This document shows, one piece after another, positions 2,807 to 12,262 of a stretch of DNA of 17,266 nt (the first letter of the stretch is position 1; the number at the start of each line of letters is the position of its first letter). Where the stretch lies: the NCBI GenBank assembly GCA_023228225.1, contig JALOBO010000029.1, forward strand, positions 1 to 17,266, written 5' to 3'. Both the position numbers and the translations under genes were made by a program. The notes under the pieces are model-generated. The model saw nothing but the letters and a program-made list of their open reading frames with translations. It was not told the origin of the DNA and ran no database searches. This stretch comes from Clostridia bacterium. Lineage in GTDB: Bacteria; Bacillota; Clostridia; Christensenellales; UBA1242.

Positions 2807-2808
2807 AC

Positions 2809-2880
2809 CACCCATTCGTCTAACGGTTAGGACAACAGACCTTCAATCTGTAAATACGAGTTCGATTCTCGTATGGGTGA
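2809..2880 (+). tRNA. tRNA-Glu (TTC), first copy
   Basis: Acceptor CACCCAT/ATGGGTG, D arm GTCTAACGGTTAGGAC, anticodon arm ACAGA-CCTTCAA-TCTGT, T arm ACGAG-TTCGATT-CTCGT, A73. All stems are complete. CCA is not encoded. It reads GAA/GAG and has a second isoacceptor at 4207. Confidence 0.93.
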
Positions 2881-2886
2881 CAAATT

Positions 2887-2941
2887 ATAAATCGGTGCCA
2901 GTAATGGTTAAATGCTCGGAGGATAGCTCCAGCCGATTTAT
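2887..2941 (+). ncRNA. Short tRNA-spaced structured RNA with 9-bp closing stem
   Basis: ATAAATCGG (2887-2895) pairs perfectly with CCGATTTAT (2933-2941). Inside are a small hairpin GCCA-GTAA-TGGT with a GNRA-type loop and a second hairpin GGAG-GATAG-CTCC. At 55 nt it is too small for a tRNA and lacks a T arm. It sits exactly where a tRNA would be, 6 nt after tRNA-Glu. Confidence 0.5.
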
Positions 2942-2991
2942 TTAAATGTTCTTTGACAAATTGGAATAACTAAAAATTAAATGTTCTTTGA
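2942..2991 (+). repeat. Direct repeat TTAAATGTTCTTTGA (2942-2956 and 2977-2991)
   Basis: The 15-nt unit occurs twice, 35 nt apart, each followed by a TTTGGA/ATTGGA block. A looser version (GTTCTTTAAAATATTGGAA) follows the promoter at 2185. Related GTTCTTTGA leaders are common ahead of stable RNA operons in Bacteroidota, so a leader or processing role is likely (inference). Confidence 0.6.
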
Positions 2992-3000
2992 GATTTGGAC

Positions 3001-3057
3001 GCCGGCATAATGCCCCGGCTGAAATGTTCGATGAATATTATAGAGTGCATCTCTATA
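3001..3057 (+). other. Two hairpins upstream of tRNA-Asp
   Basis: GCCGG (3001-3005) pairs with CCGGC near 3015-3019, and TATAGAG (3039-3045) pairs perfectly with CTCTATA (3051-3057) around a TGCAT loop. No protein is encoded. They fill the space before the aberrant tRNA-Asp at 3063 and may be its leader or a remnant of another RNA. Confidence 0.4.
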
Positions 3058-3062
3058 CATTT

Positions 3063-3136
3063 ACCACCGTAGGGGAGCGGCCGTCCCTGTCGCCCTGTCA
3101 CGGCGAAGATCGCGGGTTCAAATCCCGTCGGTACCG
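3063..3136 (+). tRNA. tRNA-Asp (GTC), first copy, with unpaired acceptor positions 1-3
   Basis: D arm GGGG...TCCC, anticodon arm TCGCC-CTGTCAC-GGCGA, T arm GCGGG-TTCAAAT-CCCGT and G73 are all good. The 3' acceptor strand is CGGTACC, but the 5' strand directly before TA is ACCACCG, so only positions 4-7 pair; positions 1-3 are ACC where GGT is expected. No GGT lies in the preceding 100 nt that could be joined. It is either a decayed gene or one needing 5'-end repair. Confidence 0.75.
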
Positions 3137-3146
3137 CAAATAATAA

Positions 3147-3218
3147 GGTCATATGGAGTAGGGGTTATCCTCCGGCACTGTCTATGCTGGGACACGAGTT
3201 CGAATCTCGTTATGACCG
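3147..3218 (+). tRNA. tRNA-Asp (GTC), second copy
   Basis: Acceptor GGTCATA/TATGACC perfect, D arm GGAG...CTCC, anticodon arm CGGCA-CTGTCTA-TGCTG, T arm ACGAG-TTCGAAT-CTCGT, G73. The base after the anticodon is T rather than a purine, which is unusual. Its 3' end TGACCGAA is repeated after the adjacent GIY-YIG gene at 3942-3949. Confidence 0.85.
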
Positions 3219-3268
3219 AAGTAAAAAATGTACCTCAACTTTGATATATAAAATAAAACTAATTTTAT

Positions 3269-3916
3269 ATGCCAAGGAAACAGTACACGATTCATTACAT
3301 TTATAAGATAACAAATCTTATAAATGAAAAATACTATATAGGCATGCATTCTACATTTAACTTAGATGATGGATATATGGGTTCAGGAAAATATTTATGG
3401 AATGCAATTCGCAAACATGGCATTGAAAATTTTAAAAAGGAAATTTTAGAGTTTCTTCCTGATAGATGTTCATTGAAGATTAGAGAAAAGGAATTAATTT
3501 CATCATTATGGCAAACCGATTGTATGTGTATGAATTTACGACCTGACGGCGAAGGCGGATTTATTTCTGTTGAAAATCAACGAATACGTTCAATTGCCGG
3601 TGGATTGGTTCATAAACGTAAAATGGAAACTGATACCGAATATATGAAAGAATGTTCTAATAGAATGCGTAATACTATAGTAAAATTACATAACGAAGGA
3701 AAAATAAAAGTACCAGATAAAACTGGAACTAAACATAGTGAAGAAACAAAAGAAAAAATGAGATTATCTGCGTGTGGGAAACACGCAGGTGAAAAAAATT
3801 CGCAATTTGGTTTTATGTGGATTCATAACATTTCTTTAAAACAAAACAAAAAAATAAAGAAAGATGAATCAATTCCGGAAGGATGGAATAAAGGAAGAAA
3901 AATGAAATTTGAATAA
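3269..3916 (+). CDS. GIY-YIG homing endonuclease with NUMOD3-type DNA-binding motif
   Basis: A free-standing homing nuclease of 215 residues. The GIY-YIG domain occupies about residues 8-95: IYK at 11-13, YYIG at 22-25, the catalytic Arg in RKHG at 48, and REKELI at 72-77 with the metal-binding Glu. A NUMOD3-type module, GTKHSEETKEKM, is at 153-164, followed by a basic C-terminus that resembles the phage Seg-type nucleases. It acts by cutting a cognate DNA site to copy its own gene. It lies between tRNA-Asp (3147) and tRNA-Val (4025). The 8-nt 3' end of tRNA-Asp recurs after its stop, which fits insertion beside that tRNA. It is preceded by TTTGATATATAAAATAAA, a block shared with the other homing genes. 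The tail before the next RNA holds three tandem TTGAATAAA-like units. Confidence 0.9.
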   Translation: MPRKQYTIHYIYKITNLINEKYYIGMHSTFNLDDGYMGSGKYLWNAIRKHGIENFKKEILEFLPDRCSLKIREKELISSLWQTDCMCMNLRPDGEGGFISVENQRIRSIAGGLVHKRKMETDTEYMKECSNRMRNTIVKLHNEGKIKVPDKTGTKHSEETKEKMRLSACGKHAGEKNSQFGFMWIHNISLKQNKKIKKDESIPEGWNKGRKMKFE

Positions 3917-3941
3917 ATTGAATAAATTGAATAAAAATTAG

Positions 3942-4016
3942 TGACCGAATGCTGCCATCAGGACATTCATTAAACAAGGTTCCTGCTGAATTTATTGAAT
4001 GGGTGTGCGCGGTCCG
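3942..4016 (+). ncRNA. Structured RNA element between homing gene and tRNA-Val
   Basis: GACCG (3943-3947) can pair with CGGTC near 4012-4016. Inside, CATTCA (about 3964-3969) pairs with TGAATG, or alternatively CAGGA with TCCTG. It begins with a copy of the 3' end of tRNA-Asp. Several competing stems are visible, so the fold is uncertain. No protein is encoded. Confidence 0.35.
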
Positions 4017-4024
4017 GTTATTAT

Positions 4025-4099
4025 AGGAGATTAGCTCAGCGGTACAGAGCGGCTGATTTACATTCAGCGGGTCGGGGGGTTCGAATCCCTCATCTCCTA
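4025..4099 (+). tRNA. tRNA-Val (TAC)
   Basis: Acceptor AGGAGAT/ATCTCCT, D arm GCTCAGCGGTACAGAGC, anticodon arm GCTGA-TTTACAT-TCAGC, T arm ending CCCTC, A73. All stems pair; it reads GTA/GTG. Confidence 0.92.
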
Positions 4100-4129
4100 C
4101 TAAATTAAATGTTAAAATAATATAAAGTT

Positions 4130-4201
4130 ATGGAAACAACAATTACAACAGACGAAATTGAGATTTACGAAGAAATCATGGAAAATTTTCCACGAACATA
4201 A
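4130..4201 (+). CDS. Possible 23-codon ORF
   Basis: ATG at 4130, TAA at 4199-4201; product METTITTDEIEIYEEIMENF plus PRT. It is acidic, with balanced composition, and fills the gap between tRNA-Val and tRNA-Glu. There is no promoter or domain, so it is only a candidate. Confidence 0.25.
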   Translation: METTITTDEIEIYEEIMENFPRT

Positions 4202-4206
4202 TACAC

Positions 4207-4278
4207 GGCCCGTTCGTCTATCGGTTAGGACATCAGGTTTTCAACCTGGAAAGGCGAGTTCGATTCTCGCACGGGCTA
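4207..4278 (+). tRNA. tRNA-Glu (TTC), second copy
   Basis: Acceptor GGCCCGT/ACGGGCT (G-T at the end), D arm GTCTATCGGTTAGGAC, anticodon arm TCAGG-TTTTCAA-CCTGG, T arm GCGAG-TTCGATT-CTCGC, A73. It has the same anticodon as 2809 but a clearly different body, so it is not a recent duplicate. Confidence 0.93.
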
Positions 4279-4288
4279 CATTGCATTT

Positions 4289-4338
4289 AATTGAAGAATT
4301 CTGTATTGGACTGTTTCCTTTAACGAGGGTCTTCAATT
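4289..4338 (+). ncRNA. 50-nt element with 9-bp closing stem
   Basis: AATTGAAGA (4289-4297) pairs perfectly with TCTTCAATT (4330-4338). Inside, GGA-CTGTT-TCC is a small hairpin. It follows tRNA-Glu by 10 nt and encodes nothing credible. Confidence 0.45.
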
Positions 4339-4351
4339 GATAAAATATAAA

Positions 4352-4409
4352 AGGTTGAGTTCAGCAAACAATAAAAACTCAAATTTTCATTTTGACAAAA
4401 GTTCAACCT
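4352..4409 (+). other. Region with two alternative 7-bp stems
   Basis: TTGAGTT (4355-4361) pairs perfectly with AACTCAA (4376-4382), while AGGTTGA (4352-4358) pairs with TCAACCT (4403-4409). The two stems share bases 4355-4358 and so exclude each other. The loop holds TTCAGCAAAC, similar to the CAGCAAC of the tRNA insertions. It ends 7 nt before tRNA-Phe. Confidence 0.4.
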
Positions 4410-4416
4410 GTAATTT

Positions 4417-4489
4417 GCGGATGTAGCAAAGATGGTCATTGCATGTGCCTGAAGAGCACACCATATCGGTTCGAGTCCGGTCATCCGCA
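4417..4489 (+). tRNA. tRNA-Phe (GAA), intact copy
   Basis: Acceptor GCGGATG/CATCCGC, D arm GCAA...TTGC, anticodon arm TGTGC-CTGAAGA-GCACA, T arm ending TCCGG, A73. All stems pair. Confidence 0.92.
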
Positions 4490-4557
4490 CAATTTGGTAG
4501 TGCGTTAGTGCTTTTATATATTTTTTGGTAATGCATTGAATATATAAATAAAAACAA

Positions 4558-5214
4558 ATGATAAAAGAAACAAAAATATGTCCCCATTGTGGTAAAGAAT
4601 TTCCATATAAAGGAATTGCTACACATATATGGCGAATGCATGGTGATGGTCAAAATCATAATCCTAATATAGGTTATGCTAATGGTTCCAGAGAAATTTG
4701 GAATAAAGGTTTATCAAAAGAAACAAGCGATGCTGTTGCACAAATGGGTAAAACGTTATCAGCAAAAATTGCAAATGGCGAAATAACGCCATCATTTTTA
4801 GGTAAAACTCACACTGCTGAACAACGTAAAAAAACGTCAGAACGAATGAGTTTGCATAATCCTGGTGGGAAATGCAAATGGTTCGAATATGAAAAAGCGA
4901 ATGGTGATAAAGTAAAGGTACAAGGAACATGGGAACTTCGATTTGCAAAGGTTCTCGATTTAATTGACAATGAATGGATAAAAATAGGTGTAGGAAATTC
5001 GACGCATTCATATGAATGGGAAGATGAAAGCGGTATAACACATATGTACACACCAGATTTTTATAGCCCAAAATTAAATAAGTATTTCGAAGTAAAAGGA
5101 TATTGGTGGGGTGATGATAAAAATAAAATGATTAAAGTTCAGGAACAACATAACCTGAATATTGAAATAATACAAAAAAAGGAATTAGCAATATACGAAA
5201 AGCTAATAACATAA
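4558..5214 (+). CDS. PD-(D/E)XK homing endonuclease with N-terminal zinc finger (copy 1)
   Basis: 218 residues. The N-terminus has a C2H2-like finger: CPHC at 8-11, H23 and H28 in HIWRMH. The middle holds GKTHTAEQRKKTSERM (82-97), a NUMOD3-like DNA-contacting motif. The C-terminal third carries a restriction-endonuclease-fold signature: E126 in GTWELRFA, YTPDFY with P166-D167, and FEVKGY with E178-K180. That is a PD...ExK active site like those of some phage and cyanobacterial homing enzymes. The gene is followed after 3 nt by a decayed tRNA-Phe, while an intact tRNA-Phe lies 68 nt upstream, suggesting that tRNA-Phe is its home site. The leader GAATATATAAATAAAA is shared with other homing genes. 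It is homologous to 5798-6460 (same finger and NGD-like spacer) but diverged. Confidence 0.82.
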   Translation: MIKETKICPHCGKEFPYKGIATHIWRMHGDGQNHNPNIGYANGSREIWNKGLSKETSDAVAQMGKTLSAKIANGEITPSFLGKTHTAEQRKKTSERMSLHNPGGKCKWFEYEKANGDKVKVQGTWELRFAKVLDLIDNEWIKIGVGNSTHSYEWEDESGITHMYTPDFYSPKLNKYFEVKGYWWGDDKNKMIKVQEQHNLNIEIIQKKELAIYEKLIT

Positions 5215-5217
5215 ATT

Positions 5218-5292
5218 GGGAAGTTAGCGCAGATGGTCAGTTCGCGCAGGACTGAAAAGCCTGAGATGTGGGTTCAAATCCGTCTCGTTCCA
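5218..5292 (+). tRNA. tRNA-Phe (GAA), decaying copy
   Basis: D arm GCGCAGATGGTCAGTTCGCGC is perfect and the anticodon loop CTGAAAA reads Phe. The acceptor (GGGAAGT/TCGTTCC) has two mismatches and a wobble, the T stem (GTGGG/CCGTC) has two mismatches, and the anticodon stem has an A-G pair at 31-39. It begins 4 nt after the stop of the homing gene. Probably a nonfunctional remnant; the intact copy is at 4417. Confidence 0.65.
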
Positions 5293-5295
5293 CAA

Positions 5296-5311
5296 GTTTG
5301 CAATTGCAAAC
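5296..5311 (+). repeat. Perfect 16-nt palindrome
   Basis: GTTTGCAATTGCAAAC, followed by AAAAA. It lies between the decayed tRNA-Phe and a tRNA 3' half. It might be a protein-binding site or a hairpin; role unknown. Confidence 0.5.
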
Positions 5312-5316
5312 AAAAA

Positions 5317-5352
5317 TCTCGGAAAGTATTGGTTCGAATCCAATCTGGGCGT
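5317..5352 (+). pseudogene. 3' half of a tRNA (orphan)
   Basis: TCTCG resembles the 3' strand of an anticodon stem. A perfect T arm ATTGG-TTCGAAT-CCAAT (5328-5344) and 3' acceptor strand CTGGGCG follow. No matching 5' strand (CGCCCAG) was found nearby. Remnant of a tRNA broken by rearrangement. Confidence 0.55.
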
Positions 5353-5355
5353 AAT

Positions 5356-5457
5356 GGCCTGGTAGTGTAACGGTGAGCACGTCTGACTTGGTCCTGAAGT
5401 TTCCAGGGAAATACCGGCAGAGGCCGGTGATGAAAGGTTCGACTCCTTTTAGGACCG
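5356..5457 (+). pseudogene. Composite tRNA locus: 5' half joined to an aberrant short tRNA
   Basis: 5356-5383 reads as a normal tRNA 5' half: GGCCTGG, TA, D arm GTGTAACGGTGAGCAC, G, TC. From 5390 a second acceptor GGTCCTG pairs with TAGGACC (5450-5456) and encloses GTTTC-CAGG-GAAAT, an arm ACCGG-CAGAGG-CCGGT with a six-base loop lacking T33, and a T arm AAAGG-TTCGACT-CCTTT. Neither reading gives a standard tRNA. A TCACC/GGTGA stem interrupted after its second base would put a 29-nt insert at the same 28/29 site as the other split tRNAs, but the loop and acceptor then do not fit. The amino acid cannot be assigned. Confidence 0.45.
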
Positions 5458-5467
5458 CAAATTTTAT

Positions 5468-5541
5468 TGTCGTGTATATCAGTTGGTTAGATTACGAACC
5501 TGATAAGTTCGGGGTCACTGGTTCAAGTCCAGTCACGACAA
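5468..5541 (+). tRNA. tRNA-Ile (GAT), first copy
   Basis: Acceptor TGTCGTG/CACGACA, D arm with short ATC/GAT stem, anticodon arm CGAAC-CTGATAA-GTTCG, T arm ACTGG-TTCAAGT-CCAGT, A73. Confidence 0.9.
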
Positions 5542-5546
5542 CATAT

Positions 5547-5620
5547 AGGCTGTTAGCTCAATTGGTTAGAGCACTTGACTGATACTCAAGAGGTTCTGGG
5601 TTCAACTCCCAGGCAGCCTA
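5547..5620 (+). tRNA. tRNA-Ile (GAT), second copy
   Basis: Acceptor AGGCTGT/GCAGCCT, D arm GCTCAATTGGTTAGAGC, anticodon arm CTTGA-CTGATAC-TCAAG, T arm CTGGG-TTCAACT-CCCAG, A73. Position 38 is C, unlike the first copy. It starts 5 nt after the first copy, so the two are surely cotranscribed. Confidence 0.9.
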
Positions 5621-5623
5621 CAA

Positions 5624-5672
5624 AACGGAAAGATGTTCAGCAACGTTATTCCCGTTCAAGTTTAAACGTTGC
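5624..5672 (+). ncRNA. Candidate H-type pseudoknot RNA between tRNA-Ile and tRNA-Asn
   Basis: Stem 1 AACGG (5624-5628) with CCGTT (5652-5656); stem 2 GCAACGTT (5640-5647) with AACGTTGC (5665-5672), 8 bp perfect. The stems cross, with loops of 11, 4 and 8 nt, a feasible H-type geometry. The element fills the whole gap between two tRNAs. Confidence 0.45.
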
Positions 5673-5677
5673 AATAT

Positions 5678-5749
5678 TCTCTTATGGTGAAATGGTTATC
5701 ACGTGGGACTGTTAATCCCTTGTTTCTGGTTCGAGTCCAGGTGAGAGAG
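5678..5749 (+). tRNA. tRNA-Asn (GTT)
   Basis: Acceptor TCTCTTA/TGAGAGA, D arm GTGAAATGGTTATCAC, anticodon arm TGGGA-CTGTTAA-TCCCT (T-T at 27-43), T arm TCTGG-TTCGAGT-CCAGG, G73. Confidence 0.9.
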
Positions 5750-5797
5750 CAAATTTGGTAAAGCATATGAATATATAAATTATAAAATAAAAATCAT

Positions 5798-6460
5798 ATG
5801 CACAACCAAAAAATTAAATGTCCGCATTGTAATAAAGAATATTCAAAACATGGTATAGGAACGCATATTTGGCGCGTTCACGGCGATGGAAAAGAATTTG
5901 ACCCCAATGAAGGATTTAAAAAAGGAACTAGAAAACAATGGAACAATGGAAAGACAAAAGAAACCGATGAACGAGTTGCGAATAATGGAAATTCATATTC
6001 TATTGCACATAAAGAAGGCAGAATAAAAACATGGTGCGAAGGATTAACAAAAGAAACTGACGAACGTATCGCAGCAATATCAAAAGTTGTTGCTGAATCA
6101 GTTTTAACTAAAGTAAAAAATGGAACTTGGCATTTATCATTTGCACATTCTAGAATTATTGAATATAATGGAATTAAGTTTCATGGGTCTTGGGAAGTTG
6201 CGTACGCAAAATATCTTGACGCAAACAACATTAAATGGCGTAGACCTACTGAACGATTTGAATATTACTTTGAAAATAAGAAACGTCATTATACACCAGA
6301 TTTTTATTTAATAGATGAAAAAAAGTATATTGAAATAAAAGGATATCCTACTGATAAAGATAGAGCAAAATGGCAAAATTTTCCATTAGATTTACAAATT
6401 ATATTAGGTAAAGAATTATTTGAAATGAAACTTATTGAACATTATAAAGAAATAAAATAA
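5798..6460 (+). CDS. PD-(D/E)XK homing endonuclease with N-terminal zinc finger (copy 2)
   Basis: 220 residues, a diverged paralogue of 4558-5214. Finger CPHC at 8-11, H23 and H28 in HIWRVH. Two TKETDER segments (at 53-59 and 84-90) form an internal repeat that may be duplicated DNA-contacting units in place of the NUMOD3-like motif. The nuclease core has E133 in GSWEVAYA, YTPDFY with P167-D168, and IEIKGY with E179-K181. The gene starts 48 nt after tRNA-Asn and ends one base before a 3' half of an Asn-like tRNA (6462-6500), indicating insertion at a tRNA-Asn-type gene with a donor tRNA fragment carried along. The leader GAATATATAAATTATAAAAT matches that of copy 1. Confidence 0.82.
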   Translation: MHNQKIKCPHCNKEYSKHGIGTHIWRVHGDGKEFDPNEGFKKGTRKQWNNGKTKETDERVANNGNSYSIAHKEGRIKTWCEGLTKETDERIAAISKVVAESVLTKVKNGTWHLSFAHSRIIEYNGIKFHGSWEVAYAKYLDANNIKWRRPTERFEYYFENKKRHYTPDFYLIDEKKYIEIKGYPTDKDRAKWQNFPLDLQIILGKELFEMKLIEHYKEIK

Positions 6461-6461
6461 C

Positions 6462-6500
6462 GGCAATCCTTGGCGTAGGTTCAAGTCCTTCTGGGAGAGC
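6462..6500 (+). pseudogene. 3' half of an Asn-like tRNA (orphan)
   Basis: AATCC (anticodon stem 3' side), TTGGC, T arm GTAGG-TTCAAGT-CCTTC (one mismatch), then TGGGAGA-G. It aligns with the 3' half of tRNA-Asn 5678-5749 (AATCCCTTG... GAGAGAG), but its acceptor strand needs TCTCCCA, which is absent nearby. It abuts the stop codon of the homing gene. Confidence 0.6.
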
Positions 6501-6501
6501 T

Positions 6502-6616
6502 AGTTACATGGTGTAATGGCAACATGCTTAAAAATTGAATCTGCATAAAGATTCTATTCAGCAACCAATATTTCCCTGTCACGGAAGAGTTTCAGGTTCG
6601 ATTCCTGATGTAACTA
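6502..6616 (+). tRNA. tRNA-Asp (GTC) split by a 44-nt insertion in the anticodon stem
   Basis: Acceptor AGTTACA/TGTAACT perfect, T arm TCAGG-TTCGATT-CCTGA, A73, anticodon loop CTGTCAC (6576-6582). The 3' anticodon strand GGAAG (6583-6587) needs CTTCC. C6527-T6528 and T6573-C-C6575 supply it if 6529-6572 is removed, giving a 71-nt tRNA. Run-on T residues leave the exact junction ambiguous by 1-2 nt. An unspliced stem TTTCC/GGAAG is also possible, but it would leave the D and anticodon arms 45 nt apart. Confidence 0.8.
6529..6572 (+). other. tRNA insertion element A (44 nt)
   Basis: Starts TAAAAATT, forms GAATCT-GCATAA-AGATTC, then TATTCAGCAACCAATATT. Outside the hairpin, TTG can pair with CAG across a small bulge. 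It aligns throughout with the insertion in tRNA-Arg (7966-8019). It is too short for a self-splicing intron of any known class. Confidence 0.7.
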
Positions 6617-6629
6617 CAAATAAAAAATG

Positions 6630-6723
6630 TGCGCCGCATACGCTCTATTTTCAATATCGAGCGGTGTTCCCATGAGTTTCATTCTATATGAAACTATTGT
6701 TGAATCAAATCATGCGCAGGAAC
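6630..6723 (+). ncRNA. Candidate pseudoknotted RNA upstream of tRNA-Trp
   Basis: Hairpins CGCTC/GAGCG (about 6641-6663) and GTTTCAT/ATGAAAC (6676-6682, 6688-6694). TGCGC (6630-6634) pairs with GCGCA (6714-6718) and GTTCC (6666-6670) with GGAAC (6719-6723); these two cross, implying a pseudoknot. No protein is encoded. Confidence 0.4.
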
Positions 6724-6727
6724 GTAA

Positions 6728-6746
6728 CGAAATCTAATAAATTTCG
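6728..6746 (+). other. Isolated hairpin with 7-base loop
   Basis: CGAAAT-CTAATAA-ATTTCG, 6 bp with a loop that looks like an anticodon loop (C, T, then AAT). No D or T arm accompanies it. It lies 6 nt before tRNA-Trp. Confidence 0.4.
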
Positions 6747-6752
6747 CAATAC

Positions 6753-6825
6753 ACGTCTGTGGCCCAATTGGTGGGGCAGCGGTCTCCAAAACCGAAGGTT
6801 CCAGGTTCGAGTCCTGGCAGGCGTG
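6753..6825 (+). tRNA. tRNA-Trp (CCA)
   Basis: Acceptor ACGTCTG/CAGGCGT, D arm GCCC-AATTGGTG-GGGC, anticodon arm CGGT-CTCCAAA-ACCG, T arm CCAGG-TTCGAGT-CCTGG, G73 as usual for bacterial Trp. Confidence 0.92.
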
Positions 6826-6890
6826 CAAAAGGAATGTCAACCTTTTTGAAAAAATGATGTAGGGGGCGCGGCCTGAAAAACGCGCGATAT

Positions 6891-7035
6891 AGGGAGTTAG
6901 TTTAAAATGAGGCAAGACGACAGATGCTGAAAGGCTGAAACATTGTTTCTAGCGTAAAACAACAGGCGGCCAAGCCTGTAGATGGTAAAGATTTTGTACA
7001 TCGTATGGAATTGGGTTCGAATCCCTCACACCCTG
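6891..7035 (+). tRNA. tRNA-Thr (TGT) split by a 68-nt insertion in the anticodon stem
   Basis: Acceptor AGGGAGT/ACACCCT (one A-A mismatch), TA, D arm GTTT-AAAATGAGGCA-AGAC, G26. A6920-C6921 plus G6990-A-T6992 make ACGAT, which pairs perfectly with ATCGT (7000-7004) around loop TTTGTAC; 6922-6989 is the insertion. The T stem (TTGGG/CCCTC) has two mismatches and the variable region six bases, so the tRNA may be partly decayed. The insertion site is the same as in tRNA-Arg and tRNA-Asp. Confidence 0.55.
6922..6989 (+). other. tRNA insertion element C (68 nt)
   Basis: Contains CTGAAAC-ATT-GTTTC followed by TAGCG and AACAAC, reminiscent of the CTGAA-hairpin-CAGCAAC plan of the other two, plus an extra hairpin CAGGC-GGCCAA-GCCTG. 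Relationship by sequence is weak; by position it is exact. Confidence 0.45.
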
Positions 7036-7050
7036 CTAAAATATTTAATT

Positions 7051-7245
7051 ATGTCAAATTGGAAATGTAATTTATTAGGACATGATTGGAACACTGAAAA
7101 TAAATGTAAACATCACTGCAATAGAAAAGGATGTTTAAATGAAAGAGTTCTAATGTATAAAAGATATGGGAAGATTGATGAACCCGCATGTATGTGGGTT
7201 GAAATTGATTGGAATAGAATTTTAAGTCCTGGATATTTTATTTAA
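7051..7245 (+). CDS. Small zinc-binding protein, DUF1660-like (64 aa)
   Basis: The ATG at 7051 is chosen over an in-frame upstream ATG at 6982 because the latter lies inside the split tRNA-Thr. The product starts MSNWKCNLLGHDWN and has C6, the GHDW segment, then CKHHCNRKGC, so it holds enough Cys and His for one zinc site. A CxLxGHxW start followed by a Cys cluster is typical of DUF1660-type small prophage proteins. No catalytic domain is visible. It lies 15 nt after tRNA-Thr with no promoter of its own and so is probably read from the tRNA transcript. Confidence 0.65.
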   Translation: MSNWKCNLLGHDWNTENKCKHHCNRKGCLNERVLMYKRYGKIDEPACMWVEIDWNRILSPGYFI

Positions 7246-7250
7246 TAAAA

Positions 7251-7279
7251 TTGAAACTATTAAAAAGTTCTGTATATAA
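7251..7279 (+). promoter_or_regulatory. Phage-type promoter of the YqeY-like gene
   Basis: TTGAAACTATTAAAAAGTTC followed by TGTATATAA, 21 nt before the ATG at 7301. Confidence 0.7.
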
Positions 7280-7300
7280 ATAACAATTAAATTAAAAACA

Positions 7301-7711
7301 ATGACACTCAAGGAAACAATTGCAACTGACCGTATGACGGCAATGAAACAAGGAAATTCTGTTCAAAAAAATGTTTTATCGACATTACTTTCTGAAGTTG
7401 ATAAAAAATCAAAAGAACCAAAACGTGAATCACCAATTGTTTCAGATACAGAAGTGCAAGTTATTATCAAAAAGTTAATATCATCAAATATTGAATGTAA
7501 TGTAACTGATGAAAATATATATCTTGAATGTTATTTGCCGAAAATGTTAAACGAATCAGAATTACAAAAAATTATCGAAAAACAAATTAAAGATAATTCA
7601 TATAGTTCAATGAAAGACATGGGTAAAATAATGTCGTATTTAACATCAAATTATACAGGTCAATACGACGGTAAAGTTGCAAGTGAACTAGTGAAAAAAT
7701 CTTTTATTTAA
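7301..7711 (+). CDS. YqeY / GatB C-terminal-domain-like protein
   Basis: 136 residues. The start (LKETIATDRMTAMKQGN) and especially the end (SSMKDMGKIMSYLTSN at 102-117, then GQYDGKVASELVKK) match the YqeY family, which shares its helical C-terminal domain with GatB of the tRNA-dependent amidotransferase. YLPKMLNESEL at 78-88 is the family's central hinge. The middle is about 10 residues shorter than in cellular YqeY. GatB uses this domain to bind the tRNA of Glu-tRNA(Gln), so a tRNA-binding or tRNA-metabolism role is likely, but the free-standing protein has no proven activity. Location inside a phage tRNA array supports that idea. It has its own phage-type promoter and ends before a 26-codon ORF and a terminator. 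Confidence 0.85.
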   Translation: MTLKETIATDRMTAMKQGNSVQKNVLSTLLSEVDKKSKEPKRESPIVSDTEVQVIIKKLISSNIECNVTDENIYLECYLPKMLNESELQKIIEKQIKDNSYSSMKDMGKIMSYLTSNYTGQYDGKVASELVKKSFI

Positions 7712-7774
7712 AAGAATATATAATACTGATAATACAAAAAAAGTTAAACTAATAAAACATAACAATCTTCGAAA

Positions 7775-7855
7775 ATGAAAACAATCATAACAATAAAACG
7801 TAGAACAATAAAACGTATGATGAGAAAGATGATAATCTTCTCAAACCAGGTATGA
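7775..7855 (+). CDS. Possible small basic peptide (26 aa)
   Basis: ATG at 7775, TGA at 7853-7855; product starts MKTIITIKRRTIKRMMRK. Strongly basic. It lies directly before a terminator, which gives it a plausible transcription unit with the YqeY-like gene. Length alone does not exclude chance. Confidence 0.35.
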   Translation: MKTIITIKRRTIKRMMRKMIIFSNQV

Positions 7856-7879
7856 TAATGTTTAAATAAGAATATTCTC

Positions 7880-7911
7880 AAGGTCCTGGTTTTTAATCAG
7901 GACCTTTTTTT
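7880..7911 (+). terminator. Rho-independent terminator
   Basis: AAGGTCCTG (7880-7888) pairs with CAGGACCTT (7898-7906), followed by TTTTT. It ends the YqeY unit just before the second tRNA block. Confidence 0.88.
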
Positions 7912-7937
7912 GTCCGTTTATTAAAGAAAAAACATAT

Positions 7938-8064
7938 TGCGAGGTAGCTCAGTTGGTAGAGCACGTATTCAAAAAACTGAAATCTGATTAAAGATTTCAT
8001 ACAGCAACAAATACGAAATAGACTCCTAATCTCGTGGTCGTCGGTTCGAGTCCGGCCCTCGCAA
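7938..8064 (+). tRNA. tRNA-Arg (CCT) split by a 54-nt insertion in the anticodon stem
   Basis: Acceptor TGCGAGG/CCTCGCA, D arm GCTCAGTTGGTAGAGC, T arm GTCGG-TTCGAGT-CCGGC and A73 are perfect. The 3' anticodon strand TCTCG (8030-8034) needs CGAGA; C7964-G7965 and A8020-G-A8022 supply it on either side of 7966-8019. Loop CTCCTAA. Removing the insert gives a 73-nt tRNA without any mismatch, and the junction between bases 28 and 29 is unambiguous. Confidence 0.9.
7966..8019 (+). other. tRNA insertion element B (54 nt)
   Basis: Core ACTGAAATCT-GATTAA-AGATTTC, then ATACAGCAACAAATACG. The hairpin GAAATCT/AGATTTC is 7 bp; CTG pairs with CAG below a 3-nt bulge; TATT plus the upstream exon CG pairs with AATACG near the insert end, so the folded precursor competes with the mature anticodon stem. 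Clearly related to element A (6529-6572). Confidence 0.8.
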
Positions 8065-8086
8065 CAAATTGAAATTGAAAACATAT

Positions 8087-8178
8087 CGCGAGTTGGAGAA
8101 GTTAGGTCATCTCACCTGCCTCATAAGCACGGAGTCCCTTAATTAGGGTATACACAGGTTCGAATCCTGTACTCGCTA
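8087..8178 (+). tRNA. tRNA-Met (CAT), initiator-like, with 17-nt variable-region insertion
   Basis: Acceptor CGCGAGT/ACTCGCT with an unpaired C1-T72, D stem GAGA/TCTC (A11-T24 as in initiators), loop CTCATAA, stem CCTGC/GCACG with a C-C mismatch at 28-42, T arm ACAGG-TTCGAAT-CCTGT, A73. After the normal 5-base variable loop GAGTC, 17 extra bases (8137-8153) follow, with a CCCT/AGGG hairpin that uses the last C of the loop. Lacks the GGG/CCC run of true initiators. Confidence 0.8.
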
Positions 8179-8192
8179 CAAAAATAACATAT

Positions 8193-8265
8193 CGTGGTGT
8201 AGGGTATTGGTCCCCTAGCGAGTCTCATAAACTTGCCAATATGCGTTCGATTCGCATCACCGCAA
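8193..8265 (+). tRNA. tRNA-Met (CAT), initiator-like acceptor
   Basis: Acceptor CGTGGTG/CACCGCA with C1-A72 unpaired, the classical bacterial initiator mismatch. D stem AGGG/CCCT (purine at 11), with only one base between acceptor and D arm. Anticodon arm CGAGT-CTCATAA-ACTTG, T arm ATGCG-TTCGATT-CGCAT, A73. No GGG/CCC run. Confidence 0.82.
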
Positions 8266-8277
8266 CAAAACATAAAT

Positions 8278-8350
8278 GGCGAGGTAGCTCAGTTGGCAGA
8301 GCGCGGGTGTCATAAACCTGAGGTCACCAGTTCGAACCTGGTCCTCGCTA
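8278..8350 (+). tRNA. tRNA with CAT anticodon (elongator Met or Ile2)
   Basis: Acceptor GGCGAGG/CCTCGCT, D arm GCTCAGTTGGCAGAGC (C11-G24, elongator type), anticodon arm CGGGT-GTCATAA-ACCTG, T arm ACCAG-TTCGAAC-CTGGT, A73. Met versus lysidine-modified Ile cannot be decided by eye. Confidence 0.9.
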
Positions 8351-8405
8351 CATATAAATTATTAAAAAGTAAATAAAATGAAGAAGTACAAAAAACATAA
8401 CTGAT

Positions 8406-8443
8406 AAGTAACTTACGGATACGTGACAATCTACGAGTTGCTT
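8406..8443 (+). ncRNA. Hairpin element with 8-bp stem before tRNA-Lys
   Basis: AAGTAACT (8406-8413) pairs with AGTTGCTT (8436-8443), one G-T. The loop is 22 nt. It lies 12 nt before tRNA-Lys. No ORF longer than 8 codons is present in the 105-nt gap. Confidence 0.4.
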
Positions 8444-8455
8444 TTAATAATAATT

Positions 8456-8526
8456 GCAATCGTAGCAAAGCGGCCATGCTCTGGGCCTTTAACCCGGCGA
8501 GGTGAGTTCGACTCTCACCGGTTGCA
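8456..8526 (+). tRNA. tRNA-Lys (TTT), standard form
   Basis: Acceptor GCAATCG/CGGTTGC, D arm GCA...TGC, anticodon arm CTGGG-CCTTTAA-CCCGG, T arm GTGAG-TTCGACT-CTCAC, A73. Confidence 0.92.
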
Positions 8527-8532
8527 CAACAC

Positions 8533-8619
8533 GTATCTGTGGCCGAGTAGGAACGAGGCACCACACTTTTAATGTGGGATTCCAAAAGATGTACGTGGGT
8601 TCGAGTCCCACCGGATACA
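8533..8619 (+). tRNA. tRNA with Lys anticodon (TTT) on a class II-like body
   Basis: Acceptor GTATCTG/CGGATAC perfect, 3-bp D stem GCC/GGC with a 12-base loop (GAGTAGGAACGA), anticodon arm CCACA-CTTTTAA-TGTGG, 17-base variable region (8578-8594), T arm GTGGG-TTCGAGT-CCCAC, A73. The short D stem, large D loop and long variable region are those of Leu/Ser tRNAs, yet the anticodon is Lys. The variable region forms no strong stem. What amino acid it accepts cannot be stated. Confidence 0.8.
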
Positions 8620-8676
8620 CTTCGAACTATATGAACTTGATTAAAAACTTTTAATCATTTGAATATATAAAATAAA

Positions 8677-9492
8677 ATGGTAAATAAAATTTGTGAAAAT
8701 TGTGGAAAACCGAATAGCGGCGAATACGGTTCAGGAAGATTTTGTTCTGCAAAATGTTCAAGATCTTTTAGTACGAAAGATAAACGGAAAGAAATAAATG
8801 AAAAAGTAAAACAAACTTTTAAATTAACAAGACATGTACGAATAGATTTATGCGATTGTGGCAAAAACTGTGATAACGGCAAATGCATATGTTCGGATTG
8901 TTCTCCGTATCGAATGAATAAAGAATTATTCAATAAGTTAAATATTGATACAAAAGATTTAAAGATGGCTAATGATATTGCAATAAATAAGTTGAAAAAA
9001 ATGTACTTTGATGATAATATGTCGTCATGCCAAATATATGAGAAATACAAAATTAAAGAAAACTCACTTTTTAATTTTTTTAAAAAGAACGGCATAAATT
9101 TAAGAGATAATAAAAAAGCAGGTGTACTTGCATTGTTACAAAATAGGCGAACGCTATTACCAAACAATTTTAAGTTTCATAGTGAATGGCATGAATCGTG
9201 GGATAATAAAAAAATGTTTTTAAGAAGTTCTTATGAAAAGAAATTTGCGGAACACTTGGATAAACTAAAAATAGTGTATGAAGTAGAATCAAAACGTGTA
9301 TCATATGAATATGATAATACGATTCATGTTTACATTCCTGATTTTTATATACCATCATTGAATTTAATTGTTGAAACAAAATGTTCGTATTTTATGAACA
9401 AAGAATTAGAACAAAATACTGCTAAGTTAAAAGCGGTAGAAGATTTAGGATATAAAGTATTATTGCTTCTCGATGGCGAAATAAATTTTTAA
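8677..9492 (+). CDS. PD-(D/E)XK homing endonuclease with zinc-ribbon N-terminus
   Basis: 271 residues. The N-terminus has a four-Cys knuckle (C6, C9, C23, C27 in CENCGK and FCSAKC), then a second Cys cluster at 59-75 (CDCGKNC ... CICSDC). A helix-turn-helix-like stretch is at 115-140 (MSSCQIYEKYKIKENSLFNF). The nuclease part has SSYEKKFAEHL (184-194) with a candidate Glu, YIPDFYIP with P221-D222, and VETKC with E233-K235. Compared with the two finger-type copies upstream the catalytic core is alike but the DNA-binding half is different, so the core has been recombined with other modules. It lies between tRNA-Lys (8533) and tRNA-Arg (9511) and carries the same TTTGAATATATAAAATAAA leader just before its ATG. 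Confidence 0.8.
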   Translation: MVNKICENCGKPNSGEYGSGRFCSAKCSRSFSTKDKRKEINEKVKQTFKLTRHVRIDLCDCGKNCDNGKCICSDCSPYRMNKELFNKLNIDTKDLKMANDIAINKLKKMYFDDNMSSCQIYEKYKIKENSLFNFFKKNGINLRDNKKAGVLALLQNRRTLLPNNFKFHSEWHESWDNKKMFLRSSYEKKFAEHLDKLKIVYEVESKRVSYEYDNTIHVYIPDFYIPSLNLIVETKCSYFMNKELEQNTAKLKAVEDLGYKVLLLLDGEINF

Positions 9493-9510
9493 AGATGGAC
9501 AACAATAAAT

Positions 9511-9582
9511 GCCTCCGTAGTTCAACGGATAGAACGAGAAACTTCTAATTTCTAAATTCAGGTTCGATTCCTGGTGGGGGTA
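9511..9582 (+). tRNA. tRNA-Arg (TCT), first copy
   Basis: Acceptor GCCTCCG/TGGGGGT (several G-T), D arm GTTCAACGGATAGAAC, anticodon arm AGAAA-CTTCTAA-TTTCT, T arm TCAGG-TTCGATT-CCTGG, A73. Confidence 0.9.
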
Positions 9583-9599
9583 CAATAATTGCAAAATAT

Positions 9600-9672
9600 G
9601 CACTATAGCTCAATGGATTAGAGCAGCGCACTTCTAATGCGCAGGTTGAATGTTCGACTCATTCTAGGTGTA
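9600..9672 (+). tRNA. tRNA-Arg (TCT), second copy, imperfect acceptor
   Basis: D arm GCTCAATGGATTAGAGC, anticodon arm GCGCA-CTTCTAA-TGCGC and T arm GAATG-TTCGACT-CATTC are perfect. The acceptor is poor at its base: GCACTA against the 3' strand leaves an A-A at the inner end and one extra base. Possibly a decaying duplicate of the Arg-TCT tRNA 17 nt upstream, or one that tolerates a 6-bp acceptor. Confidence 0.8.
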
Positions 9673-9734
9673 CAAGATATAGCACAAACGACTTGACAAA
9701 AGTTAAGATTTGAATTTGATATATAAAATAAACT

Positions 9735-10586
9735 ATGTGGACATGCAGATTTTGCAATAAGGAATTTGATTTTGATACAAATGAACATGGAAAAAAAGGT
9801 GGACATGCAAAACATTGTTTATCTAATCCAAATTATGAAATAAATAAAGAAAAAATGAAACTTAGCGTAGAAGTTTCAAAGAAAACTAGAGAAATAAATA
9901 AAGCAAATGGTAAAGTGTATGGACATAATCATACAGAAGAACAGCGTAAACATTTATCAGAAAAAAGGAAAGAATACTTAAGAAATAACCCAGACGCACA
10001 TGTATGGAAGCGAGCAACAAAATTTAAGTCGGGACCATGCGAATATTTGAAAAGTTATTTAAAAGAAAATAATATAGAATTTGAAGAAGAAGTGTCAATA
10101 TCTCATGATAGATTTTTTTCAATTGATATTTTGATTCCATCTAAAAATTTAATATTAGAAGTAAATGGAAATCAACATTATAATTCAGATGGCAGTTTAT
10201 CAGATTATTATAAAGAACGACATGAGTATTTATTAATGAAAGGATTTAATGTAATAGAGATTCATTATTCTAAAGTTTATAACAAAGAAGAAATATTTAG
10301 TATAATTCAAAATGTCAAGGAACAATCTATAATTTTGCCATTCCGTATGAAGGAAAAAATAATGCCAAAATATGGAACGAAAGAAAAATATCTAGATGCT
10401 AGGCGCGTATTAGCAGAAGAAAAAGAAATAGAAAATATAGAGAAAGTAAGAAACTCGGACATAGACTTTACAAAATATGGTTGGTCAACGCAAGTTGCAT
10501 TGTTGATTAATAAAGGAAAAATAAGTAATTATATGAAAAAGTATCTTCCTGATATATATGAAATCGCATTTAAAAGAAAACATTAG
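9735..10586 (+). CDS. Vsr/DUF559-fold homing endonuclease with zinc finger and NUMOD3-like motif
   Basis: 283 residues. Zinc finger at the N-terminus (C4, C7, H24, then H27/C28 in GGHAKHC). A NUMOD3-like GHNHTEEQRKHLSEKRKEY at 63-81. The nuclease core around 100-195 has SIDILIP with D131, LEVNGNQHY with E142 and H148, D157, and ERHEYLLMKGFNVIEIHY. That pattern (D...ExxGxxHY...D...R...L...G) is the DUF559/Vsr-like fold used by some phage homing enzymes. The C-terminal 85 residues (FTKYGWSTQVALLINK) look like an additional DNA-binding module. It stops in TAG 4 nt before the next ORF. The leader TTTGATATATAAAATAAA links it to the other homing genes although the catalytic core is unrelated in detail. 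Confidence 0.83.
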   Translation: MWTCRFCNKEFDFDTNEHGKKGGHAKHCLSNPNYEINKEKMKLSVEVSKKTREINKANGKVYGHNHTEEQRKHLSEKRKEYLRNNPDAHVWKRATKFKSGPCEYLKSYLKENNIEFEEEVSISHDRFFSIDILIPSKNLILEVNGNQHYNSDGSLSDYYKERHEYLLMKGFNVIEIHYSKVYNKEEIFSIIQNVKEQSIILPFRMKEKIMPKYGTKEKYLDARRVLAEEKEIENIEKVRNSDIDFTKYGWSTQVALLINKGKISNYMKKYLPDIYEIAFKRKH

Positions 10587-10590
10587 AATT

Positions 10591-10818
10591 ATGAAATTAA
10601 ATAAAGCAGCACAAGAAAGAATAGAGCATTATCGAAAATTGCTAACAGATAATGGTTACACGCCATGTTTTGATATATCAAGCGTAACATTAAATCCAAA
10701 TTTGAAAAACGATGAAAATCGAGAAGCAAAAATAATTGAAGATTTAATTTCATTGCAAGAAGCAATTAAAAATAATGATCCTAGTATAAAATTATATTAT
10801 TCAACAAAAGGAAAATAA
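10591..10818 (+). CDS. Unknown protein (75 aa)
   Basis: ATG at 10591 chosen because it follows the preceding stop by 4 nt; an upstream in-frame ATG (10558) would overlap the homing gene. The product begins MKLNKAAQERIEHYRKLL and is predicted mostly helical and acidic (EAKIIEDLISLQEAIKNND). No domain recognised. Tight spacing suggests cotranscription with the homing gene, and it ends 7 nt before the next tRNA. Confidence 0.65.
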   Translation: MKLNKAAQERIEHYRKLLTDNGYTPCFDISSVTLNPNLKNDENREAKIIEDLISLQEAIKNNDPSIKLYYSTKGK

Positions 10819-10824
10819 ATAAAC

Positions 10825-10898
10825 TGGCCCTTGGCGTAGTTGGTTAACGCAAGTTCCTCATAAGAACAAGATCGGGGGTTCGAATCCCTCAGGGCCAA
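10825..10898 (+). tRNA. tRNA with CAT anticodon (Met/Ile2)
   Basis: Acceptor TGGCCCT/AGGGCCA perfect, D arm GCGTAGTTGGTTAACGC (C11-G24, elongator type), anticodon arm AGTTC-CTCATAA-GAACA (A-A at 27-43), T arm GGGGG-TTCGAAT-CCCTC, A73. Confidence 0.92.
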
Positions 10899-10924
10899 CT
10901 TAACAATTAAAATAAAGTAAAATT

Positions 10925-11236
10925 ATGGATTCAGACCCCATCAAGAATTTCTTAGTAAATTCATCGGAAACAGGAAAGCATATCGTATTTTCGATACGCA
11001 CAGGAAAAAAATATTATGTAGAGCCTATCGGTAATGGCCGTTCAGATTGGGGTGACATTGATGTTGCAACAAAAACTGTAACTGGCGATTATGGACAAAA
11101 ATACACAGGTTCTGTATTAGCAAAAGATTCTGTTATCACTGAAGAAAATGGGTTTAAGAATATTCAATTTGTAGAATCTGGAAGTCCATATCATTTAATT
11201 GATGAGATTGATGCAAAATACCCATCATTAAAATGA
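10925..11236 (+). CDS. Unknown protein (103 aa)
   Basis: ATG at 10925 after an AAATAAAGTAAAATT leader; stop TGA 11234-11236. The product MDSDPIKNFLVNSSETGKH ... is beta-rich with many Gly and Asp (GRSDWGDIDVATKTVTGDYG) and no membrane segment. SIRTGKKYYVEPIGNGRSDWGDI recalls small phage accessory proteins, but no family could be named. The stop codon overlaps the start of the phage-type promoter for the next RNA unit. Confidence 0.75.
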   Translation: MDSDPIKNFLVNSSETGKHIVFSIRTGKKYYVEPIGNGRSDWGDIDVATKTVTGDYGQKYTGSVLAKDSVITEENGFKNIQFVESGSPYHLIDEIDAKYPSLK

Positions 11237-11262
11237 AACTATTAAAAAATTCTGTATATAAA
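11234..11262 (+). promoter_or_regulatory. Phage-type promoter of a small RNA
   Basis: TGAAACTATTAAAAAATTC then TGTATATAA. What follows is not a gene but a long hairpin (11262-11340) and then a second promoter. Confidence 0.65.
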
Positions 11263-11340
11263 ATAAAATTGAAAAATATTGACGTATACTTCGGTATAAG
11301 TACGAGGATTCCAGAGAGTCTAATAATTTTCAATTTTATT
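11262..11340 (+). ncRNA. 79-nt hairpin RNA with its own phage-type promoter
   Basis: AATAAAATTGAAAA (11262-11275) pairs perfectly with TTTTCAATTTTATT (11327-11340); after one A-A mismatch TATT pairs with AATA, and after a bulged T GAC pairs with GTC (11318-11320). The apical part holds TATAC-TTCG-GTATA, a stem capped by the very stable UUCG loop. An in-frame ORF through here begins inside the promoter and is not credible. A T-rich stretch follows. Confidence 0.65.
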
Positions 11341-11349
11341 TTAATATTT

Positions 11350-11378
11350 TTGAAACTAATGAATGTTCTTGTATATAA
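11350..11378 (+). promoter_or_regulatory. Phage-type promoter
   Basis: TTGAAACTAATGAATGTTC then TTGTATATAA, 24 nt before the ATG at 11402. Confidence 0.65.
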
Positions 11379-11401
11379 TATAAAATTAAAATTGACAAAT
11401 T

Positions 11402-11599
11402 ATGAAAATCATTGAACGGTACAAAAACTTGAGATTGAAAATAACAAATTTTAAAGTTCGTTATTTTTATCAGCCTTTTGCTGATATCATTTTGATTTAT
11501 TTAGCAAATGCAAAATCTCAAAGAGAATTTGAAATTGGTTATAACATGGGTTTGGTTCTTGATACGTATTGTTCGTATTTGGGAATCGAATTACAATAA
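11402..11599 (+). CDS. Unknown protein (65 aa)
   Basis: ATG at 11402 behind a phage-type promoter. The product is MKIIERYKNLRLKITNFKVR and on, with a hydrophobic patch FADIILIYLANA that is too short and charged at the edges for a sure membrane helix, and FEIGYNMGLVLDTYCSYLGI near the end. It has no recognisable domain and is followed by the structured RNA region. Confidence 0.65.
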   Translation: MKIIERYKNLRLKITNFKVRYFYQPFADIILIYLANAKSQREFEIGYNMGLVLDTYCSYLGIELQ

Positions 11600-11604
11600 A
11601 ATTC

Positions 11605-11735
11605 GTATTGCAGAATCAGATTAAGTTCTGGAGTGCCAAGATAAAGCCTTCAGTCGAAATTGTTGCTTGAGGATCCTAACCCGATCTGAGACTTTCTAGG
11701 CTGCGCTAATGTACCGGTGGGTGATTTTGCAATAC
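11605..11735 (+). ncRNA. 131-nt structured RNA with 8-bp closing stem
   Basis: GTATTGCA (11605-11612) pairs perfectly with TGCAATAC (11728-11735). Inside, TCAGAT pairs with ATCTGA, and CCTT-C-AG with CT-T-GAGG; AGCCT and AGGCT could add a long-range pair. No protein reading is credible. It does not show RNase P, tmRNA or 6S signatures. Confidence 0.6.
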
Positions 11736-11742
11736 AAAATAT

Positions 11743-11885: not shown

Positions 11886-11898
11886 CAAACAAACGTTC

Positions 11899-11969: not shown

Positions 11970-11974
11970 CAAAT

Positions 11975-12048: not shown

Positions 12049-12056
12049 AAAAAATT

Positions 12057-12261: not shown

Positions 12262-12262
12262 T

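Follow-up and report, generated by a model that had tools for sequence, protein, structure and literature searches.

Short inserts interrupt transfer RNA (tRNA) genes as the introns of archaea and eukaryotes, and circularly permuted tRNA genes occur in algae and archaea. In this work, we analysed a phage-like stretch of 17,266 nt from a Clostridia bacterium (assembly GCA_023228225.1, contig JALOBO010000029.1, positions 1 to 17,266; hereafter the window), in which tRNA genes carry short inserts in the anticodon stem, together with similar genes of other phages. These inserts differ from the archaeal and eukaryotic introns in their site and in having a hairpin-plus-core structure. The closest described system appears to be YrlA (RF02553), in which a helix bound by a Ro60-type protein is attached, at the anticodon-stem side, to a D arm, a T arm and an acceptor, and which is associated with a Ro60-like gene. 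YrlA is described as a tRNA mimic bound by the Ro60-like protein Rsr (PMC8394870), and its tRNA-like domain has been suggested to inhibit an anticodon nuclease competitively (PMC7790460). ROT/TROVE proteins, whose partner in cellular organisms is tRNA-like, have been reported for a small minority of jumbo phages (Iyer et al., PMC7824862). Permuted tRNAs are mentioned in PMC10085705, and tRNA introns have earlier been reported in Lak megaphages (PMC6784885). The Lak paper apart, no such tRNA inserts are described in the literature searched, a search of titles and openings with preprints and most subscription papers outside its scope.

ARAGORN finds 22 tRNA genes in the window, with several endonuclease-like open reading frames (ORFs) interspersed. 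A preliminary description had read three of these tRNA genes, for Asp, Arg and Thr, as split by inserts at one common site, between nt 28 and 29, and this reading stands for Arg and Asp. The arms of both genes are intact, and the Rfam tRNA model spans each of them end to end, insert included (Arg, 44.7 bits, expectation value (E) 7.9e-7; Asp, 42.6 bits, E 2.8e-6). The Arg junction is unambiguous, as had been stated, 28/29 being the sole fit. The Asp gene also fits at 28/29, but 27/28 and 29/30 fit equally, so that this is one of three readings. The two inserts are alike, each with an A-rich lead, a hairpin, TA or TATT, and then CAGCAAC. R1, a covariance model of the insert class with 13 training rows, among which the window Arg gene is included and the window Asp gene is not, gives 108 bits for Arg (E 6.9e-25) and 54.9 bits for Asp (E 5.5e-12); since R1 scores as high as 52.1 bits are also obtained for ordinary tRNAs of the window, the Asp score reflects mostly the tRNA. 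A BLAST search with the Arg gene, insert included, gives an alignment covering 96% of the query with a tRNA present in Serratia phage BF and its relatives (E 3e-9). Because this alignment runs through the insert, the Arg insert is more than a chance feature. Meanwhile, the joined Arg exons align without gaps over 99% of their length to an ordinary phage tRNA, with 83% identity.

In the case of Thr, a 68-nt insert and the restoration of a 5-bp stem can be read as described, but clear membership of the class did not hold. The C-N-GCA core is absent from its insert, no Rfam tRNA match is listed for it at E≤1, R1 gives only 18.6 bits (E 0.0037), and the arms include one acceptor mismatch and a weak T stem. 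We therefore treat this gene as doubtful on account of the missing core and the weak score; it may be a diverged class member or an unrelated insertion. The dissimilarity of the inserts to group I and group II introns was confirmed, in that Rfam gives no match of either kind at E≤1 in the window, and the Arg and Asp inserts, at 44-54 nt, are far shorter than such introns, which run to hundreds of nt. No other Rfam class was found for the inserts in the window at the same threshold.

Further examples in other phages, for which the preliminary description had suggested a search, were found by BLAST, pattern scans and the covariance model. With the Arg gene as query, relatives aligned through the insert were obtained from Serratia phage BF, from Erwinia, Cronobacter and Xanthomonas jumbo phages, and from Aeromonas phages Aeh1 and PX29 and Vibrio phage D479. 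Several are annotated by their depositors as unusually long tRNAs, one as tRNA-Pseudo and one as joined from two pieces. A catalogue was then compiled from IMG/VR pattern scans and a scanner that needs the three arms (acceptor, D and T) and, in addition, the core preceded by a hairpin. After removal of six candidates with two T arms, five that could not be parsed and three redundant ones, the initial 83 were reduced to 77, 72 and finally at least 69 non-redundant insert-bearing tRNA genes from 46 loci, which may include a few false positives. Members come from, among others, phages of Serratia, Erwinia, Cronobacter, Xanthomonas, Aeromonas and Vibrio, and nine isolate records contain at least 33 R1 matches of at least 105 nt. 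Phage QD01, which infects Vibrio natriegens, carries at least four insert-bearing tRNAs.

The core C-N-G-C-A is present in all 69 genes, being part of the selection, and takes the form CAGCAAC in 39. The hairpin before it has 5-9 bp; its loop has four bases in 42 genes, starting with G in 36 of these and matching GNNA in 25. In a motif-free test, only the tRNA arms were required (105-135 nt, arms near perfect), and of the 82 candidates so obtained 73 contain the core. A hairpin lies just upstream in 65 of the 73, against a mean of 10.5 and a maximum of 18 when the upstream letters are shuffled. The element is a helix in which an A-rich strand enters and a strand of UNA-CAGCAAY type leaves at the same end. 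The position of the junction relative to the core varies.

Joining at 28/29 or 29/30 gives a perfect 5-bp anticodon stem with U33 in 41 of the 69 genes, and 45 allow such a complete tRNA at some junction, as the window Arg and Asp genes do. Four of the 45 fit only from 33/34 onward, the exact point being ambiguous in most of these. The recurrence of the insertion near this position of the anticodon stem therefore stands, but a fixed site does not, with junctions at 28/29, at 29/30 and in a few cases in the anticodon loop. By the same stem and U33 test at one junction, 171 of 246 ordinary tRNAs in these loci pass. The anticodon arms of the insert-bearing genes are about as intact as those of ordinary tRNAs (65% vs 70%), a comparison that is uneven in that the former had many junctions to choose from and the latter one. 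In addition, nt 27-28 pair with nt 42-43 in 28 of 30 loci with a clear 3' hairpin, compared with 12.4 ± 2.0 after permutation (maximum 20 in 2000). By nearest-neighbour folding, which takes no account of protein or tertiary contacts, the anticodon stem forms in 41/41 joined and 0/41 unjoined sequences; these sequences were preselected for a perfect joined stem, and the unjoined result is the informative figure. They bear 15 different anticodons. Some members of the catalogue have degenerate anticodon arms.

The insert-bearing phages also share a protein gene. DUF2828 (PF11443) was detected in 22 of 23 insert-bearing phage records searched (21 above the cut-off), including 9/9 isolates, and in none of 14 control genomes. 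The 23 were taken from at least 34 insert-bearing records, with eleven left aside, namely the short contigs G007, G009, G012, G013, G015, G019, G021, G022, G024 and G025, and G023, whose length and matches are those of W04. In eight records (Aeh1, PX29, G001, G003, G006, G010, G017 and G018), the DUF2828 gene lies within about 3.5 kb of the insert-bearing tRNAs; in D479 and QD01 the distance is 10-15 kb. The association also appears from the side of the protein. Among phages picked for DUF2828 and not for inserts, KVP40 has five insert-bearing tRNAs and LPCS28 has two right after the DUF2828 gene, and Klebsiella phage KP13-26, chosen as a control, carries DUF2828 and, about 1 kb after the gene, a 136-nt match bearing CAGCAAC. 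The tRNA-bearing phages T4, RHph_X66, BillNye and PaGz-1, which are negative for DUF2828, give 31 R1 matches, the longest of 87 nt. Among 50,697 phage records, 681 have a tblastn match to DUF2828 proteins, and the RNA partners of these proteins are mostly undescribed in the literature searched.

The DUF2828 protein is predicted to resemble Ro60. In its AlphaFold model (mean predicted local distance difference test score 80.7, predicted template-modelling score 0.73), a TROVE-type helical domain appears to be combined with a vWA fold. When the model was compared with PDB by Foldseek, the ten best matches were all Ro60/TROVE structures (E 8e-10 to 7.5e-7, template-modelling score 0.47-0.59, root-mean-square deviation 7.3-8.4), among them 9kop, 9l5y, 2nvo, 2i91, 9nfa, 1yvr, 9nep and 9nf8; Ro60 of Thermus phage phiLo and Rsr of D. 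radiodurans are included. The Pfam TROVE family itself (PF05731) was found in 0/23 insert-bearing records. Public records label such proteins as RNA-binding or Ro-like RNA binding. In 22 of the 23 records, the inserts are accordingly encoded together with a predicted Ro60-type protein, as Y RNAs are.

Insert-bearing tRNA-like genes are not confined to phage records. In a scan of bacterial genome contigs (at least 118 stretches), which may be of host, prophage or phage origin, they were marked in at least four, L352, L363, L389 and L397, with two such genes in L397. In L363 and L397, that is in two of the four loci, a DUF2828 gene lies directly upstream. L397 comes from a Neisseriaceae metagenome-assembled genome (MAG); its two insert-bearing genes are downstream of DUF2828, and at 2900-3100, upstream of the DUF2828 gene, two short stem-like stretches with ACAGCAAT are present. 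L352 and L389 are Clostridia MAG contigs. The L352 gene adjoins an ORF resembling release factor 2, and no DUF2828 was noticed within the 8 kb of this locus.

The motif also occurs in free-standing RNAs beside DUF2828 genes of Listeria, Mycobacterium, Enterococcus and other phages. In 1.5-kb flanks of DUF2828 from 11 diverse phages, ACAGCAAY was found at 13 sites in nine phages, without exception in the sense of the gene. In the rest of these loci, two sites fall inside DUF2828 genes, one in sense and one in antisense, and three more, all sense, lie further out. The 7 nt before the motif have a perfect complement nearby, mostly downstream and often preceded by an A-rich stretch, at 11 of the 13 sites, compared with 5.7% of random places in the flanks; one of the 11, in phiM12, is doubtful, its complement being merely 19 nt away. 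The geometry read from these sequences matches the end of the insert's helix (A-rich strand in, UNA-CAGCAAY strand out), with the loop on the opposite side. For example, Listeria phage A511 has two ACAGCAAU sites with 7-bp helices upstream of DUF2828. High transcription was measured for three regions at most 2 kb upstream of an Rsr-like gene in Listeria phage CKA15, which is P100-like, and Y RNAs were given as one explanation (PMC12282133). The motif RNAs of A511 may correspond to these regions, which occupy the same place upstream of the gene; no tRNA part is seen there. Two stable RNAs of T4 were tried as members of the class and rejected, as rnaC has no C-N-GCA and rnaD has C-N-GCA near its 3' end without the architecture of the insert-bearing tRNAs being seen. 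T4 has no DUF2828 match.

Permuted relatives were found as well. Mycobacteriophage CELFI and Enterococcus phage Ben have, next to their DUF2828 genes, RNAs in which the 3' tRNA half precedes the 5' half, a short linker joins the acceptor strands, and the ends form a motif-bearing helix. Put in normal order, the CELFI RNA reads as a tRNA-Ile(GAT) split at 28/29, with an anticodon arm in the predicted fold and several G-U pairs in the acceptor. The Ben RNA in normal order likewise reads as a complete tRNA, with a stem ACGGC/GCCGT split at 29/30, where the predicted fold shows another hairpin. Like permuted tRNA genes, the two have reversed halves joined in the anticodon arm; unlike the algal and archaeal ones, they are of phages and carry a Y-like helix at their ends. 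The Rfam YrlA model gives 47.8 and 34.4 bits on the Ben RNAs (threshold 69), with which the YrlA consensus shares the order of T arm, closed acceptor and D arm. The study of YrlA by Chen et al. 2014 may already describe some of the stand-alone or permuted RNAs. The insert-bearing tRNAs themselves fall well below the 69-bit gathering threshold of RF02553 (12 loci with best scores of 17.8 to 18.6 bits; none in the window at E≤1). They differ from the circularly permuted YrlA consensus, with its closed acceptor and no anticodon loop, in having normal order, free acceptor ends and anticodons, and where they have the CAGCAAC core, the YrlA consensus has a different sequence. Even so, the insert-bearing tRNAs and YrlA look like circular permutations of one architecture. 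The preliminary description knew of no bacterial or phage class like these inserts; for the element this does not hold, as the motif and the associated protein gene point to the Ro60/Y RNA system.

On the phage side, the same claim of novelty is limited by the Lak report (PMC6784885), but the Lak-A2 candidates that we inspected differ in kind. Lak megaphages share with the present class the insertions in tRNA genes, and Lak-A2 encodes a DUF2828-like protein (E 7e-22); however, none of the four long Lak-A2 matches inspected by eye has the hairpin-plus-core inside the tRNA. One of these seems to carry a nested tRNA in its anticodon loop, and one looks like an ordinary tRNA over-extended by the model. 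In Lak-A2 at 417503-417666, the insert in the anticodon loop seems by eye to have a closing stem and a T arm of its own, so that one tRNA would lie within the intron of another. The 118-nt tRNA of Sinorhizobium phage phiM12 at 94960-95077, in which the anticodon stem is complete and the insert bears a second T-arm-like hairpin, looks Lak-like by eye.

Judged by its permuted relatives, the motif that they share with it and the association with DUF2828, the insert is quite probably a Y-RNA-like element that binds the Ro60-type protein, binding that is known for the helix of YrlA and predicted here. Its fate in the tRNA is closer to an even call, and we slightly favour removal over an unspliced Y RNA because the stems are restored, pairing extends across the junction, the anticodons are varied, and RNA ligase families are present in the isolates. 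In such a pathway, the DUF2828 protein, with its TROVE-like helices and vWA fold, would bind the element in the tRNA precursor, the RNA would be cut at both junctions, and the halves would be sealed into a mature tRNA by RNA-end repair enzymes of the phage, namely Rnl1- and Rnl2-type ligases; the freed element could then serve as the Y RNA of the protein. The families PF09511 and PF09414 were found in 9/9 isolates, though T4-type phages generally have such ligases. In the window, the ORF at 15280-15792 has a weak match to PF08302, the cyclic phosphodiesterase domain of fungal tRNA ligase (21.4 bits, cut-off 23), and is possibly an RNA-end repair enzyme. As a complete chain, a protein-dependent tRNA splicing of phages and bacteria, in which a Ro60-like ribonucleoprotein recognises an intronic Y-RNA element (or the ends of permuted tRNA genes), phage repair enzymes cut and ligate the halves, and the excised intron becomes the Y RNA of the protein, is a tentative proposal with somewhat less than an even chance.

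Several observations weigh against this reading. A perfect stem with U33 is not obtained at any junction in 24 of the 69 genes, and five of the 41 perfect-stem genes bear the unusual anticodon AGG. Many loci were fetched by patterns containing the motif, so that its frequency is biased upward, while the isolate phages came from BLAST instead. In the window Arg gene and a few others, the 5' junction can be seen by eye to form a P1-like helix with the 3' part of the insert, but this helix was rejected, as it finds no support over permuted pairs (3.17 vs 3.10 ± 0.12). The association with DUF2828 is also imperfect. In phages of the BF and GAP32 types, the gene lies more than 100 kb from the insert-bearing tRNAs, and record G002 has inserts and no DUF2828. 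Salmonella phage Munch has DUF2828 and no R1 match of at least 100 nt, and Campylobacter phage F368, A511 and a Staphylococcus phage have DUF2828 and no insert-bearing tRNA among the R1 matches listed. Campylobacter F368 and Lak-A2 have DUF2828 but no ACAGCAAY in its flanks. None of the ten window ORFs scanned with Pfam is a DUF2828 gene. As for processing, neither ligase family occurs in five of the 23 records (contigs G001, G002, G003, G016 and G017), and no endonuclease was identified for the cutting step. Finally, the known relative YrlA is described as a tRNA mimic and not as an intron (PMC8394870).

This precedent leads to a serious though less probable alternative, namely that the inserts stay in place and the whole RNA serves the DUF2828 protein as a Y RNA of tRNA shape. 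The element would bind the protein, and the tRNA part would act as an effector domain or else divert anticodon nucleases as a decoy, a role in keeping with the inhibitor suggested for YrlA (PMC7790460). The presence of DUF2828 in 22/23 records would be expected under it, and the permuted relatives adjoining DUF2828 have a closed acceptor stem. In Vibrio phage D479, an ordinary tRNA-Glu(TTC) stands beside an inserted one, and by eye both kinds of tRNA-Asn(GTT) are present too; in the bacterial L363 and L397 genes beside DUF2828, the anticodon arm is not plainly restored by eye. The AGG anticodons point the same way. Against an unspliced Y RNA, the anticodon stem is absent from the predicted unspliced fold, and still its conservation is close to that in ordinary tRNAs, with many anticodons represented. 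Such upkeep would be needless for a mimic, though a decoy might need it.

Splicing by a small new ribozyme made of the insert and the tRNA body, free of protein, would suit the small size, the strict core and the G-headed four-base loops (36/42), but is very unlikely given that the junction shifts relative to the core, that the splice-site helix found no support, and that RNAs with no tRNA part, in which self-splicing would be senseless, have a like motif too. Decay of tRNA genes hit by functionless insertions, which the degenerate anticodon arms and the tRNA-Pseudo annotation might suggest, is just as improbable in view of the recurrence in distant phages, the pairing across the junction, the hairpin excess over shuffled sequences and the gene association.

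Under either of the two leading explanations, these results would link the unexplained long tRNA genes of jumbo and T4-like phages, the Ro60-like DUF2828 proteins of phages, and the question of where YrlA, a Y RNA that mimics tRNA, came from. Removal of the inserts would mean that bacteria and phages have a route of tRNA splicing outside group I and group II introns. If they are kept, the Y RNAs of phages would include tRNA-shaped ones with many specificities, which perhaps serve as decoys for anticodon nucleases.

Table. Insert-bearing tRNA genes of the window and their parts
Feature	Positions	Strand	Basis
tRNA-Arg(CCT) gene with insert, arms intact	7938..8064	+	Rfam tRNA model, arm parsing, R1
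Arg insert, 54 nt, between nt 28 and 29	7966..8019	+	Sequence reading; single fitting junction
Arg-insert hairpin TGAAATCT/AGATTTCA	7978..7999	+	Catalogue parse, R1
Arg-insert core motif CAGCAAC	8002..8008	+	
tRNA-Asp(GTC) gene with insert, arms intact	6502..6616	+	Rfam tRNA model, arm parsing, R1
Asp insert, 44 nt, junction 28/29 ambiguous by one base each way	6529..6572	+	
Asp-insert hairpin GAATCT/AGATTC	6537..6554	+	Catalogue parse, R1
Asp-insert core motif CAGCAAC	6559..6565	+	
Putative tRNA-Thr(TGT) with 68-nt insert (6922-6989), core motif absent, doubtful member	6891..7037	+	

The other genes of the window may be briefly described. The endonuclease-like ORFs between the tRNA genes are located at 3269-3916, 4558-5214, 5798-6460, 8677-9492 and 9735-10586. 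Their weak matches are of the GIY-YIG, Phage_endo_I-like and DUF559/RAP-like kinds; the ORF at 5798-6460 has no Pfam match, and its start resembles by eye that of the ORF at 4558-5214. A YqeY-like protein (PF09424, 72 bits) is encoded at 7301-7711 between insert-bearing tRNAs, and at 12966-15147 an NfeD-like protein (weak match) is followed by a Band_7/flotillin protein. Two tRNAs with long variable arms, one of 92 nt at 8087-8178 and one of 87 nt at 8533-8619, are given the anticodons CAT and TTT by ARAGORN, an assignment that looks odd.

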